Assembly (NCBI GenBank): GCA_016871895.1
Contig: VHBO01000020.1
Coordinates: forward strand, 1 to 33,090
DNA length: 33,090 nucleotides
DNA from: Gemmatimonadota bacterium
GTDB taxonomy: Bacteria > Gemmatimonadota > Gemmatimonadetes > Gemmatimonadales > Gemmatimonadaceae
Direction of reading: 5' to 3'
Of the stretch, positions 11,761 to 17,301 are shown piece after piece; the stretch's first letter is position 1; each line of letters starts with the position of its first letter. The position numbers and the translations under genes were made by a program. The notes beneath the pieces are model-generated. The model saw nothing but the letters and a program-made list of their open reading frames with translations, was not told the origin of the DNA and made no database searches.

Positions 11761-13941
11761 ATGGTGACCACCGCCGCGCTCGCCGAGATCATCCCGGGCT
11801 GGACGCTGCCGGACGACGCCGCCGCGCGGCTCGACCCGGAGCTCCTCGGGCGCGCCTACCGGTTCAGCGAGAAGGCGCACGCCGGGCAGACGCGCCGGAA
11901 TGGGGACCCGTACGTCACCCATTGCGTCTCGGTGGCGAAGATCCTCGCCGAGCTGCACCTCGATACCGTCACGGTGGCGAGCGGGCTCATCCACGACGTC
12001 GTCGAGGACACCCGCAGCACCGTCGAAGACGTCGAGCGCGAGTTCGGCCGCGAGGTGGCGCAGATCGTCGACGGCCTGACGAAGATCGGCCACCTGCCGA
12101 TGGCCTCGCGCGAGGAGCGGCAGGTGGAGAGCTATCGCAAGCTCCTGCTCTCCGTCGCGAAGGATGCCCGCGTGATCCTCGTGAAGCTCGCCGACCGACT
12201 GCATAACATGCGGACCCTCGAGTGGATGCCCGAGGAGAAGCGGCGGCGCATCGCCCTCGAGACGCGCGACCTCTACGCGCCGATGGCGCATCGCTTCGGC
12301 CTCGCCGCGATGAAGGCCGAGCTCGAAGATCTCGCCTTCAAGTGGCTTGAGCCTGAGGAGTATCGCGCGCTCGCGAAGCTGCTGGCAGAGAAACGGGCGG
12401 ATCGCGACGCGAAGATCGCGGAGATGATCGCCCCGCTGGAGGTGAAGCTACGCGAGAGTGGGGTCCGCCTCCTCGAGGTCGGCGGACGGCCGAAGCATCT
12501 CTGGTCGATTCACAAGAAGATGCTCAAGCGGGAGAAGCCGTACGACGAGATCTATGACCTCTACGCGATTCGCGTGCTGGTCGAGGATGTGCCCGAGTGC
12601 TACCACGCGCTCGGGGTGATCCACGGCGCCTGGACCCCGCTGCAGGAGCGCATCAAGGACTACATCGCCTCGCCGAAGTCGAACGGCTACCAGTCGCTGC
12701 ACACGACGATCTTCGGTCCCGGCGGGACGCTTTTCGAGATCCAGATCCGGACCGGCGAGATGCACCGCACGGCGGAGTACGGCATCGCGGCGCACTGGCT
12801 CTACAAGGACGGGAGCCGGGAGAGCGGCGAGCTCGATCGGCACCTCAACTGGTTCCGGCAGGTGCTCGAGTTGCAGCTCGACGCCGAGACCCCAGACCAG
12901 TTCCTCGAGTTCCTGAAGCTCGACCTCTATCAGGATGAGATCTTCGTCTTCACACCGAGTGGTGACGTCATCCAGCTGCCGAAGGGGGCGACGCCGATCG
13001 ACTTCGCCTTCGCGGTGCACACGCAGGTCGGGCTCCGCACGCAGGGCGCCCGTGTGAATGGCCGCATCGTCCCGCTCTCGCGTGAGCTCCGGAACTCGGA
13101 GACGTGCGAGATCATCCGCGGGCCGGTGCCGCGGCCGAACCGCGATTGGCTCGCGCACGTGCGCACGGGGCGCGCGCGGCACAAGATCCGGCAGTGGCTC
13201 CGGCAGGAGGAGCAAAAGACCTTCCAGGCGGTCGGCGAGGAGATTCTCGGACGCGAGCTGCGCCGGCGCCGGCACGCCAAGCTCTCCGAGACGGAACTCG
13301 CTCGGGCGGCGGCCGCGCTCAAGCTGCAGGATCCCTCGCAGGTGCTCGCGGGGATCGGGCAGGGGGATCTCACCGTCACGCAGGTGATGGCGGCGCTGTA
13401 TCCGGATGCGGCCGCGGCCCCGCAGGACGCGCTGAAGCCGAGCCCGATCGAGCGGTTGATCGACCGGATGCGCGGCGTCGGGGGTGGCTCGAAGGGCCTC
13501 CGGGTGCAGGGCGCGGATGGGATGCTCGTGCGCTACGCCCAGTGCTGCCAGCCGGTCCCCGGCGACCAGGTTGTCGGCTATGTGACGCGCGGACGCGGCG
13601 TGAGCATCCACCGCCACGATTGCCCGAACCTGCTCTTCCTCGTGCACGAGCCCGAGCGCCGCCTCGAGATCGACTGGCAGGAGACCTCGGGGGAGCGGTT
13701 CGTCATCCGGCTCGCAATCGAGGGGCAGGATCGACAGGGGCTCTACGCCGACCTCGCGACCGCGGTGAGCGCGGCGGGGACGGAGATCCGGTCCCTCGAG
13801 CTCCGCACCGTCGACGGCCGGGTCACCGGCGCCGCGCTGGTGGAGGTGGAGAACCTGGCGCACCTGGAGCGGATCGTGAAGGCCGCGCGCCGCGTGAAGG
13901 GGGTCTCGAGCGTGGCCCGGCGGGAGAAGCTCGCCGACTGA
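11761..13941 (+). CDS. rel: Bifunctional (p)ppGpp synthetase/hydrolase, Rel/SpoT family
   Basis: A 726-residue long RSH protein that makes and degrades the stringent-response alarmone. The hydrolase HD site is intact: His54, His78-Asp79 in IHDVVEDT, and Asp145 in LADRLHNMRTL. The synthetase has YDLYAIRV (Asp266) and the R297-I-K-D300 motif, the RxKD form found in bifunctional enzymes rather than the ExDD form of synthetase-only RelA. The TGS domain is near 388-450, the zinc-finger/CC region includes Cys595-Cys596, His619 and Cys621, and the ACT domain runs from about 650 to the end. No second RSH is in the window, so this may be the only one. It starts 26 bases after radC with no evident Shine-Dalgarno. 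Confidence 0.96.
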   Translation: MVTTAALAEIIPGWTLPDDAAARLDPELLGRAYRFSEKAHAGQTRRNGDPYVTHCVSVAKILAELHLDTVTVASGLIHDVVEDTRSTVEDVEREFGREVAQIVDGLTKIGHLPMASREERQVESYRKLLLSVAKDARVILVKLADRLHNMRTLEWMPEEKRRRIALETRDLYAPMAHRFGLAAMKAELEDLAFKWLEPEEYRALAKLLAEKRADRDAKIAEMIAPLEVKLRESGVRLLEVGGRPKHLWSIHKKMLKREKPYDEIYDLYAIRVLVEDVPECYHALGVIHGAWTPLQERIKDYIASPKSNGYQSLHTTIFGPGGTLFEIQIRTGEMHRTAEYGIAAHWLYKDGSRESGELDRHLNWFRQVLELQLDAETPDQFLEFLKLDLYQDEIFVFTPSGDVIQLPKGATPIDFAFAVHTQVGLRTQGARVNGRIVPLSRELRNSETCEIIRGPVPRPNRDWLAHVRTGRARHKIRQWLRQEEQKTFQAVGEEILGRELRRRRHAKLSETELARAAAALKLQDPSQVLAGIGQGDLTVTQVMAALYPDAAAAPQDALKPSPIERLIDRMRGVGGGSKGLRVQGADGMLVRYAQCCQPVPGDQVVGYVTRGRGVSIHRHDCPNLLFLVHEPERRLEIDWQETSGERFVIRLAIEGQDRQGLYADLATAVSAAGTEIRSLELRTVDGRVTGAALVEVENLAHLERIVKAARRVKGVSSVARREKLAD

Positions 13942-13974
13942 CGGCGCGGGGAACCCGGGTCGCGTCCGACGGCG

Positions 13975-13980
13975 TACATT
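13975..13980 (+). promoter_or_regulatory. Possible -10 box (TACATT) for leaderless start of the small membrane protein
   Basis: TACATT fits the TANNNT pattern and ends five bases before the ATG at 13986, the spacing expected if transcription starts at or beside the start codon. No Shine-Dalgarno is present in the 44-base gap. The same geometry recurs at 15047 and 31592. No convincing -35 box is visible. Confidence 0.35.
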
Positions 13981-13985
13981 CCGGT

Positions 13986-14420
13986 ATGATCCTCGCCATC
14001 CACAACCTCCTCCGGTGGGCGGTCCTCCTCACCGGCATCCTCGCGATCGTCCAGGCCGTGCGCGGCCTCGACGGCCGCACCCCCTTCGCGAAGACGCGGC
14101 CGATCCTGCTCGCCTTCACGGCGAACCTCCATCTCCAGCTGCTGATCGGGCTCACCCTGTTCGTCGTGTCGCCGACGGTGAAGGCCTATATGGCCGATAT
14201 GGCGGCGACGATGCGGGACGGGAGCCGTCGCTTCTTCATCGCCGAGCACCCGACGCTGATGGTGGCCGGGGTGCTGCTGGCGACGATCGGTGGCGTCATC
14301 GCGAAGAACGCGCCCGACGATGCGGCGCGGCATCGTCGGGCGCTGATCTTCACGGTGCTCACGGTGTTGCTGATCCTGGCCGGGATCCCGTGGTCCCGGC
14401 CGCTGCTCCCGAGCTTCTAG
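13986..14420 (+). CDS. Small four-helix integral membrane protein, possible heme-binding family
   Basis: A 144-residue protein with four hydrophobic segments at about 3-25, 40-62, 90-106 and 118-135, so both ends probably face the same side. It opens with ILAIHNLLRWAVLL. Histidines lie within or at the edge of the first three helices (His6, His49, His88), with His116 before the fourth. I recall similar small proteins in Bacteroidota often labelled as cytochrome b-like, with this same start; I cannot confirm heme binding from sequence. It follows rel by 44 bases and faces the H-NS-like gene across a 121-base convergent gap. Real gene with good confidence; function unknown. Confidence 0.72.
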   Translation: MILAIHNLLRWAVLLTGILAIVQAVRGLDGRTPFAKTRPILLAFTANLHLQLLIGLTLFVVSPTVKAYMADMAATMRDGSRRFFIAEHPTLMVAGVLLATIGGVIAKNAPDDAARHRRALIFTVLTVLLILAGIPWSRPLLPSF

Positions 14421-14541: not shown

Positions 14542-15024
14542 TCACTTCGCGATGAGGAACTCCGCCGGCGTGCGCCCCGTGGCCACCAGCGCCGCCAGCC
14601 AGCGCGGCTGCTTGCCGCGACCGCTCCAGGTCTCCCCCTCCGGCCCGCGGTACTTTGCGGGGACCTTGGCGACGCTGCCGGCCTTCCGCGCACCGCGCTT
14701 CGCCGCACCGGAGCCCGGAGCAGCCGACGACACGGCGGCCCGCGTCCGACCTTTTGCCCCCTTCCGGGCGGAGCGCTTGCGGCCCTTGGTCGGAGCGGCC
14801 GCCTTGGCCGGCCGCCCGCGGCGCCGACCCGTTCGGGGCGCGGCTGACACGCGCCCGCGAAGCGCCTCCGCCACGTCGTCTCCGGTGAGGCCGAGCTCCG
14901 CGATCGTTTGGCGGAGGAAGGTGAGGGCGGCGCGCCGAGCCGCCGTCTGTTGCGCTTCGATGGCGGAGAGACGCGTCTGGAGCTGCTGGATCTTCTTGCG
15001 GAGGGAGTCCGGGGCGTTCGGCAT
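14542..15024 (-). CDS. H-NS-like nucleoid protein with AT-hook and histone H1-like basic linker
   Basis: A 160-residue protein, the only gene here on the - strand. Residues 6-58 are helical with heptad-like spacing (SLRKKIQQLQTRLSAIEAQQ), suiting a dimerising coiled coil. Residues 61-124 form a linker with 21 Lys/Arg and no Asp/Glu, including an AT-hook RRRGRPAK (67-74). Residues 122-145 match the H-NS C-terminal DNA-binding domain: PAKYRGPEGETWSGRGKQP then RWL, where R136-G-K138 takes the place of the QGR minor-groove loop. H-NS proteins silence AT-rich DNA, often transferred genes, by oligomerising along it. Family members are usually about 90-135 residues, so the linker is the expansion. 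The spacer upstream is strikingly AT-rich for this genome, suggesting autoregulation. No purine-rich Shine-Dalgarno precedes the ATG; that leader is pyrimidine-rich. Confidence 0.85.
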   Translation of the reverse strand: MPNAPDSLRKKIQQLQTRLSAIEAQQTAARRAALTFLRQTIAELGLTGDDVAEALRGRVSAAPRTGRRRGRPAKAAAPTKGRKRSARKGAKGRTRAAVSSAAPGSGAAKRGARKAGSVAKVPAKYRGPEGETWSGRGKQPRWLAALVATGRTPAEFLIAK

Positions 15025-15042: not shown

Positions 15043-15046
15043 AGGA

Positions 15047-15052
15047 TATAAT
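15047..15052 (+). promoter_or_regulatory. TATAAT -10 box, + strand (towards uvrB)
   Basis: A perfect TATAAT in a region of about 70% GC surroundings. It ends six bases before an ATG at 15059, so the transcript could start at that codon without a leader; uvrB begins about 160 bases on. The -35 position falls inside the G-quadruplex motif and does not match TTGACA. On the opposite strand, TATCCT (15068-15063) with TTAACG 18 bases upstream could serve the H-NS-like gene. Confidence 0.5.
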
Positions 15053-15086
15053 CCGACGATGCAGGATAGGAAAATCGTCGGATTAT
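15048..15086. promoter_or_regulatory. Perfect 13-bp inverted repeat, candidate operator
   Basis: Arms ATAATCCGACGAT (15048-15060) and ATCGTCGGATTAT (15074-15086) are exact reverse complements around a 13-base spacer. Arm centres lie 26 bases apart, about two and a half helical turns. The left arm covers the TATAAT box, so a bound dimer or tetramer could block transcription in both directions. From 15047 to 15100, 33 of 54 bases are A or T, an island that an H-NS-type protein would prefer. Confidence 0.6.
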
Positions 15087-15217
15087 CGTTAACGCATTAT
15101 CTCCCGCCGCTCAAGGTCGGCCGGCGGCGCGCGTCGCGTCGCGTCGCCTCAGGTCGGGCGTGCCCCGACGCGCACGGACACGGGGACCGACGTACGGCCG
15201 GAGCGGCGCACCGATGA
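15059..15217 (+). CDS. Possible 52-residue leader ORF ahead of uvrB
   Basis: An ATG six bases after the TATAAT box opens a 53-codon frame whose TGA overlaps the uvrB start as ATGA (15214-15217). The predicted peptide begins [19 protein letters not shown] and continues Arg/Ala-rich. The promoter-to-ATG spacing and the exact overlap suggest a leaderless coupling peptide. Against it: early codons such as TTA, AGG and AAA are rare in this genome, the frame matches no family I know, and open frames of this length arise often by chance at high GC. Confidence 0.25.
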
Positions 15218-17301
15218 GCACGGGCGGCCCGATCGCGTCCGCGCCCGTCCGCTTCGAGCTCGAAGCCCCCTTCGCCCCCGCTGGCGATCAGCCGCGCGCC
15301 ATCGCGGAGCTGACCGCCGGCCTCGCCCGCGGCGATCGCTTCCAGACCCTCCTTGGCGTCACCGGGTCGGGGAAGACGATGACGGCCGCGAACGTCATCG
15401 CTCGGTACGGGCGGCCCACCCTCGTCCTCTCGCACAACAAGACCCTCGCCGCGCAGCTCTACGGCGAACTCAAGGGGTTCTTCCCGCGCAACGCCGTCGA
15501 ATACTTCATCTCGTACTACGACTATTACCAGCCCGAAGCGTACGTCCCCGCGTCCGACACGTACATTGAGAAGGACGCATCGATCAACGAGGACATCGAC
15601 CGGCTCCGATTGCGGGCGACCTCCTCGCTGATGGAGCGCGAGGACGTCATCGTGGTGGCAACGGTCTCCGCGATCTACGGCCTCGGCGACCCGGAGTCGT
15701 ACAAGGCCGCGATGGTCACGCTCGCGGTGGGGCAGCGCATCCCGCGCGACGACATCTTGCGCGCCCTCGTCGCCATCCAGTACGGCCGGAACGACGTCGC
15801 CTTCGAGCGCGGGACCTTCCGCGTGCGTGGCGACACGGTGGAGATCCTCCCCGCCTACGAGGAGCAGGCGGTCCGGGTCGAGATGTTCGGCGATGAGATC
15901 GAGCGCATCACCAAGGTCGATCCGCTCACGGGGCACACGATCGCGCCGCTCCAGCGCACCGCGATCTATCCGGCGAAGCACTTCGTCACGACGCGGCCGA
16001 CGCTCGAGCGCGCGGTGAAGGAGATCCGCGCGGAGCTCGCGGAGCGCTTGGTCGTGCTCAAGGGGGCGGGGAAGCTCCTCGAGGCCCAGCGGCTCGAGTC
16101 GCGCACCAACTTCGATATCGAGATGATGCTCGAGATCGGGACCTGCCCGGGCATCGAGAACTACTCGCGGATCCTCGCCGGCCGGCAGCCGGGCGCGCGG
16201 CCGGCCTGCCTCTTCGACTACTTCCCTGAGGATTTCCTCGTCGTGGTCGACGAATCGCACGTCACCTTGCCGCAGATCGGGGGGATGTTCAACGGCGACC
16301 GCGCGCGGAAGACGACACTCGTGGAGTACGGCTTCCGCCTCCCGAGCGCGCTCGACAACCGGCCCCTGATGTTCGACGAGTTCCTTGCGCTCACCCCGCG
16401 CGCGATTCACGTCTCGGCGACGCCGGGGGAGCTCGAGCTACGGCTCTCCGAGGGAACGGTCGTGGAGCAGGTGATCCGACCGACCGGGCTCCTTGATCCG
16501 ATCATCGAGGTGCGTCCGGTGCAGGGGCAGGTCGACGACCTCCTCCACGAGATCCGCGCGCGCGAACGCCGCGGCGAACGGGTCCTCGTCACGACGCTCA
16601 CGAAGCGGATGGCGGAGGACCTCAGCGATTACCTCGCGCAGGTTGGGGTCCGGGTCCGCCATATGCACGCGGACATCGATGCCATCGAGCGGATGGAGAT
16701 CCTGCGCGGCCTCCGCCTCGGGGGGTTCGACGTCCTCATCGGGATCAACCTGCTCCGCGAGGGGCTCGATCTCCCGGAGGTCTCCCTCGTCGCGATCCTC
16801 GACGCTGATCAGGAGGGTTTCCTCCGCTCCGACCGGTCCCTGATCCAGACCGTGGGACGCGCGGCACGGCACGTGGACGGGCGCGCGATCTTCTACGCCG
16901 ACCGGATCACGGGATCGATGCGGCGGTGCCTCGACGAGACGGCGCGTCGCCGCGAGAAGCAGGAAGCATTCAATGCCGAGCACGGAATCACGCCGCGTGG
17001 CGTGCAGAAGAGCACCGACCAGGTGCGTGCGCTCACGCGCGTCGCCGACGCCCGGGACTCGCGGGAGGCGCGGGAGGCGGAGGGGAAGCGGAAGACGACG
17101 GCCAAGAAGGTCGCCGAGGCGCAGCGCACGTATGCGACCGACGACCTGCCGGCACTCGTCGCTCGCCTCGAGGGCGAGATGCGCGCCGCCGCCAAGGACC
17201 TCGACTTCGAGACCGCCGCCCGGCTCCGCGATGAGCTCTTCGAGCTGCGCGCCGCGATGGGGAGCGGGCCATCGGGACAGGCGCGTGCCGGTCGTCGCTG
17301 A
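15214..17301 (+). CDS. uvrB: Excinuclease ABC subunit B
   Basis: A 695-residue helicase-like subunit of nucleotide excision repair; it takes over damaged DNA from UvrA and recruits UvrC. Walker A GVTGSGKT is at residues 48-55, the beta-hairpin that clamps DNA reads [12 protein letters not shown] (from Tyr101), and motifs [28 protein letters not shown] and the DEAD-box-like [15 protein letters not shown] are all present. A UVR motif (about 648-682) ends the protein and should bind UvrC. Length is normal. The ATG at 15214 lies about 10 residues before the conserved [17 protein letters not shown] region. It overlaps the next gene by 17 bases. Confidence 0.97.

Follow-up and report, generated by a model that had tools for sequence, protein, structure and literature searches.

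A 33,090-nucleotide stretch of a Gemmatimonadota genome (assembly GCA_016871895.1, contig VHBO01000020.1, positions 1 to 33,090; hereafter the window) carries an hns-like gene encoding a 160-amino-acid protein of the H-NS family. Our analysis makes it likely that this gene was acquired as a single insertion and lost once afterwards, and that its product is an AT-selective, self-regulating xenogeneic silencer or nucleoid protein. While this type of protein is itself known, H-NS is rare and apparently unreported in this phylum; no prior report was found in the open literature searched, which is weak evidence of absence.

Judged by its sequence, the window protein is a true member of the H-NS family. 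The TWSGRGKQP motif, which the initial annotation had read as the H-NS DNA-binding signature, occupies residues 132-140, and the H-NS domain profile PF00816 gave a significant match to residues 123-158 (E 4.8e-14, 52.3 bits, curated cut-off 25.6), the only one in the 2.28 Mb host assembly. Sequence matches of the C-terminal domain in the PDB were to Ler, Bv3F and StpA, and fold matches to Salmonella H-NS, Ler and Bv3F. The modelled domain aligned to 2l93 with a Z of 5.3 over 42 residues (rmsd 1.8) and to 2lev and 2l92 with Z of 4.0 and 3.5, modest values because the domain spans 42 residues; Foldseek gave just four matches, each to an H-NS-type C-terminal domain (Ler, Bv3F or H-NS). The minor-groove loop reads R136-G137-K138, a conservative lysine replacing the last arginine of the Q/R-G-R motif. 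This loop is also present in the aligned relatives, partly because ETWSGRGK was among the search patterns. Identity with StpA was rejected, as the NCBIfam match fell far under its cut-off.

Upstream of this domain, AlphaFold2 (21 sequences) predicted two N-terminal helices, residues 6-44 and 48-61, followed by a disordered linker, with block means of the predicted local distance difference test (pLDDT) of 90-97 over residues 11-50 and about 42-53 over residues 61-120. The coiled coil first proposed corresponds to these predicted helices. They contain a GLTxxD-type motif conserved in the relatives, and the N-terminal part, a putative counterpart of the H-NS oligomerisation domain with its two dimerisation sites, has no sequence match among solved H-NS structures. 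The linker is exactly as initially described: 64 residues (58-121), 21 lysines or arginines, no acidic residue and a GRP triplet at 70-72 within RRRGRPAK. Both sister species carrying the gene (G028 and G171) read GKRGRPAKA in the hook region, with a second GRP in G028, and a [KR]GRP core is common to all three. A hook in the linker is plausible rather than demonstrated, since composition shuffles of the window linker yielded GRP in 11% and [KR]GRP in 3.6% of cases (2.6-3.6% across the three linkers), which makes the hook core by itself weak statistically. Neither the window protein nor the proteins of the two sister species matched the Pfam AT-hook profile at E up to 10, this being a very short model whose matches HMMER filters drop.

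The host belongs to the Gemmatimonadaceae and not to the Proteobacteria, in agreement with the initial annotation, which had called it a probable non-proteobacterium. Neither of the two outcomes that the initial annotation named as refuting it, a missing profile match and a proteobacterial host, was observed. The PufM protein of a genome of the same family (G039) matches chain M of PDB 7o0u without a single difference across 252 residues, and we take this entry to be the photosystem structure of Gemmatimonas phototrophica. The puf genes serve to identify G039 alone, whereas the placing of the window genome in the same family comes from the relationships supplied for the genomes. A paper that cites the double-ring photosystem work (PMC11213709) includes 7O0U in its list of structures, G. 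phototrophica being one of the source species. The window genome (G000) has pufL and pufM of its own (G000:C12:6650-8308, L124), its PufM being nearest to 9h19 and 7o0u; no pufLM match was found in G028, an assembly 100% complete.

The assemblies concerned are all drafts with an estimated contamination of 1-3%. PF00816 exceeded its cut-off in 3 of 395 genomes of the phylum sample, in 3 of 179 in the family and in 3 of 17 in the genus, all three (G000, G028 and G171) belonging to that one genus. The suggestion of an underreported Gemmatimonadota branch is not supported by these counts. Two sub-threshold matches elsewhere in the phylum (G002 and G152) were rejected, their reading frames being unlike H-NS proteins. 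With 1.8, 2.1 and 2.28 Mb, the three hns-bearing genomes rank at the small end of the genus; assemblies of similar size that lack the gene are G290 (2.2 Mb, 81% complete), G385 (1.9 Mb, 88%) and G189 (2.3 Mb, 98%).

Comparison of the loci suggests how the gene came to its place. The order relA, small membrane protein gene, uvrB is kept in 16 of the 17 loci of the genus, the 17th (G385) being a contig fragment that begins inside uvrB. Only in G000, G028 and G171 does hns lie between the membrane protein gene and uvrB, on the opposite strand; in the remaining 13 loci these two genes follow each other uninterrupted by hns. In G290, a close sister sharing 96.5% UvrB identity with G000, the matches to the two genes lie about 30 bp apart. 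Phylogenetic analysis of UvrB united the pairs G000 and G290, and G028 and G171, in one clade (support 99/97), on which the presence of hns requires 2 changes. The shortest account is one gain followed by one apparent loss from this site in G290; as its assembly is 81% complete, there is a small chance of a moved copy. Most likely, hns is therefore a single-gene insertion, gained a single time in the common ancestor of a few species of one Gemmatimonadaceae genus and vertically inherited since, in line with the transferred gene that the initial annotation had considered. Two further features of the uvrB region were observed. G171 contains a second, partial uvrB (G171:C33:1-1845, L105; 88% to the UvrB of the window), possibly reflecting a strain mixture in the bin, and the spacers before uvrB in four genomes lacking hns (G397, G129, G073 and G395; L099, L100, L101 and L102) hold short repeats in facing copies, for example GACGGAAGACGG ... 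CCGTCTTCCGTC, which resemble a REP or terminator-type element.

The relatives found by sequence search are mostly proteobacterial. In a 47-sequence H-NS tree, an approach already put forward in the initial annotation, the three host proteins make up a separate clade (support 100/99), itself nested in a 100/99 group that comprises betaproteobacterial and other proteobacterial sequences (Accumulibacter, Alcaligenaceae, Oxalobacteraceae and the order of G421, represented by a pseudomonadotan metagenome-assembled genome, L029) joined by two Planctomycetota proteins. Horizontal acquisition from Proteobacteria is most likely, and the donor was most likely betaproteobacterial. The two Planctomycetota genes come from metagenome-assembled genomes of Planctomycetia (L040 and L082). 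A sample of 294 Planctomycetota genomes built around one of these two gave no match over the cut-off other than in that very genome (1/294); this phylum was rejected as donor and looks like another recipient, perhaps through another rare transfer. As to vehicles, no relative was found among the viral contigs, searched with patterns from the N-terminus only, and plasmid matches were limited to three Polaromonas records over 37 residues; neither was retained as a vehicle. A gene annotated H-NS in EBPR podovirus 1 (gp43, JF412294.1:29462-29557) matches the C-terminal domain with 66% identity, and phages can thus carry such genes.

The gene is real, being found in the same place in three species with a dN/dS of 0.15 between G028 and G171, and it is under purifying selection and still maintained. 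For that pair, dN/dS was 0.04 for the N-terminus, 0.22 for the linker and 0.22 for the C-terminal domain (two changes only). Between G000 and G028 the C-terminal domain gave 0.13 and the linker 0.67, rough values because synonymous sites are near saturation. This pattern in the linker is expected if its composition, not its order, is kept.

New here is an AT-rich element specific to the hns-bearing genomes of the genus. The consensus GAGATAATGCGTTANCGATNATC lies in the hns-uvrB spacer with its 21 specified positions identical in the three species, while the surrounding DNA is about 69-81% identical. With two mismatches allowed, it was found once in each of the 3 hns-bearing genomes (in the window and at L142-L144) and never in the 14 genomes of the genus lacking the gene. 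Whether GC content is taken over 40, 60 or 80 bp, the minimum for the whole window falls at or next to the element, and a 60-bp stretch there ties for the most TpA steps. H-NS and Lsr2 favour AT-rich DNA with TpA steps (PMC6936261), and TpA steps in -10 elements have been offered as a reason for promoter silencing by H-NS (PMC7074111). The simplest account is that the element is probably the promoter plus an autoregulatory site of hns. A terminator scan of this region of the window found nothing, the 13-nucleotide inverted repeat listed in Table 1 had no counterpart in either sister locus, and resemblance to the known high-affinity H-NS motif of Escherichia coli was too short to score.

Table 1. 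Features of the hns locus in the window.
Feature	Position	Strand	Basis or remark
relA/spoT homologue, flanking gene	11761..13941	+	
Small hydrophobic (transmembrane) protein, conserved between relA and uvrB	13944..14420	+	tblastn, 16/17 genus loci; start inferred
hns-like gene, 160 aa	14542..15024	-	ATG-start open reading frame; PF00816 52.3 bits; positionally kept in three species
H-NS C-terminal DNA-binding domain, loop W133-S-G-R136-G137-K138	14551..14658	-	Profile, sequence and fold matches
Basic linker, residues 58-121	14662..14853	-	Composition and low pLDDT; mostly predicted disordered
AT-hook-like core R69-G70-R71-P72	14809..14820	-	Linker sequence and composition shuffles
N-terminal helices, residues 6-44 and 48-61, putative oligomerisation domain	14842..15009	-	AlphaFold2 pLDDT; GLTxxD-type motif
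Lowest-GC 60 bp of the 33 kb window, 40% vs 70%	15043..15102	.	Between hns and uvrB
Perfect 13-nt inverted repeat ATAATCCGACGAT / ATCGTCGGATTAT	15048..15086	.	Arms 15048-15060 and 15074-15086
AT-rich element GAGATAATGCGTTAACGATAATC, 23 bp, putative promoter/autoregulatory site	15081..15103	-	Alignment and genome pattern search
uvrB, flanking gene, divergent from hns	15214..17301	+	

From the family to which the protein belongs and from this upstream element, we infer AT-selective silencing and autoregulation. The N-terminal helices would oligomerise the protein, and the disordered, lysine- and arginine-rich linker with its GRP hook would add non-specific and minor-groove affinity, linker charges being described in a review as aiding DNA binding by H-NS (PMC6936261). 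The resulting filaments or bridges would silence AT-rich (foreign) DNA against a genomic background of 70% GC, with the conserved element serving both as the hns promoter and as a silencing target of the protein itself, hence negative autoregulation. Several observations speak against the overall interpretation of acquisition and silencing. The R-G-K loop departs from the described Q/R-G-R. As to the donor, the stem leading to the host sequences in the H-NS tree is long (0.99), and support among the betaproteobacterial subgroups is low. Moreover, a sigma-70-type promoter scan of this region of the window found nothing, while in a sister locus one 9-of-12 sigma-70-type site overlaps the element and points towards uvrB.

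A general compaction protein, in which the histone H1-like linker would dominate and coat DNA non-specifically instead of silencing AT-rich genes, would fit a linker that is 33-40% lysine and arginine, lacks acidic residues and keeps its composition more than its order. We hold this to be possible but unlikely, as the H-NS domain is the most constrained part in the distant pair and the gene itself is preceded by a conserved AT-rich site. The gene could also be a local regulator, mainly controlling the divergent uvrB, and with it DNA repair, along with its own promoter. It is divergent to uvrB in all three species with the conserved element between them, and the spacing of the membrane protein gene and uvrB is short in genomes without hns; yet a kept location is expected from one ancestral insertion and H-NS family proteins usually act globally, which renders such a restricted role improbable.

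Two other explanations concern the origin of the gene rather than its function. The separate, long-stemmed clade of the three proteins would agree with an H-NS branch of ancient standing in Gemmatimonadota that nearly all lineages have lost, but the phylum and family counts, together with the uninterrupted sites in the genus, would require very many losses, and such an ancestral branch is very unlikely. Draft assemblies and their contamination estimates might raise the suspicion of a proteobacterial contig placed in a Gemmatimonadota bin. This artefact is effectively ruled out, as the gene recurs at one and the same junction in the separate assemblies of three species, each time on a contig whose relA and uvrB are typical of the genus.

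Xenogeneic silencers have been described as bound to particular groups, with H-NS, MvaT and MucR in Proteobacteria, Lsr2 in Actinobacteria and Rok in Bacillus. With a clean gain, sister species lacking the gene, an intact junction and a single apparent loss, the clade offers a natural experiment on gaining and losing a global silencer. Far more speculatively, and with considerable doubt on our part, a self-contained silencing module (H-NS, a linker AT-hook reader and an AT-rich operator of its own) may have come from Proteobacteria to act as a de novo global silencer in a GC-rich lineage with no known native xenogeneic silencer, and may have shaped the gene content of these small-genome species.

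Compared with known systems, the window protein would share its proposed role with Lsr2 of Actinobacteria, which reads the minor groove by an R-G-R motif in GC-rich hosts (PMC6936261), although no Lsr2 match was found here. Enterobacterial H-NS, StpA and Ler resemble it in C-terminal sequence and fold, while their N-terminal domains show no recognisable sequence likeness to it. H-NS has a linker much shorter than that of the window protein, and H-NS and StpA have a QGR loop (compare PMC11796372). Among the H-NS-like proteins of Betaproteobacteria, Bv3F of Burkholderia vietnamiensis (PDB 2l92) has a TWSGRG loop of the R-G type and 56% identity over 36 aligned C-terminal residues; the window protein differs in having lysine, not arginine, as third loop residue and in its Gemmatimonadota host, a comparison that covers the C-terminal domain only. 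The architecture as a whole recurs in four proteins of the G421 order (L134, L135, L136 and L138), which have a short helical N-terminus ending in GIT, a long linker and an H-NS domain with RGK, although overall identity to the window protein is 32-36%. Their linkers, of 50-59 residues, are rich in lysine, alanine and glycine, and three of the four contain GRP (L134, L135) or GRKP (L138). The two putative DNA-reading modules that the initial annotation had singled out, the basic GRP linker and the RGK loop, are thus present in the window protein without being peculiar to its host; this two-module architecture is not new in the lineage, because several proteobacterial relatives already have it.
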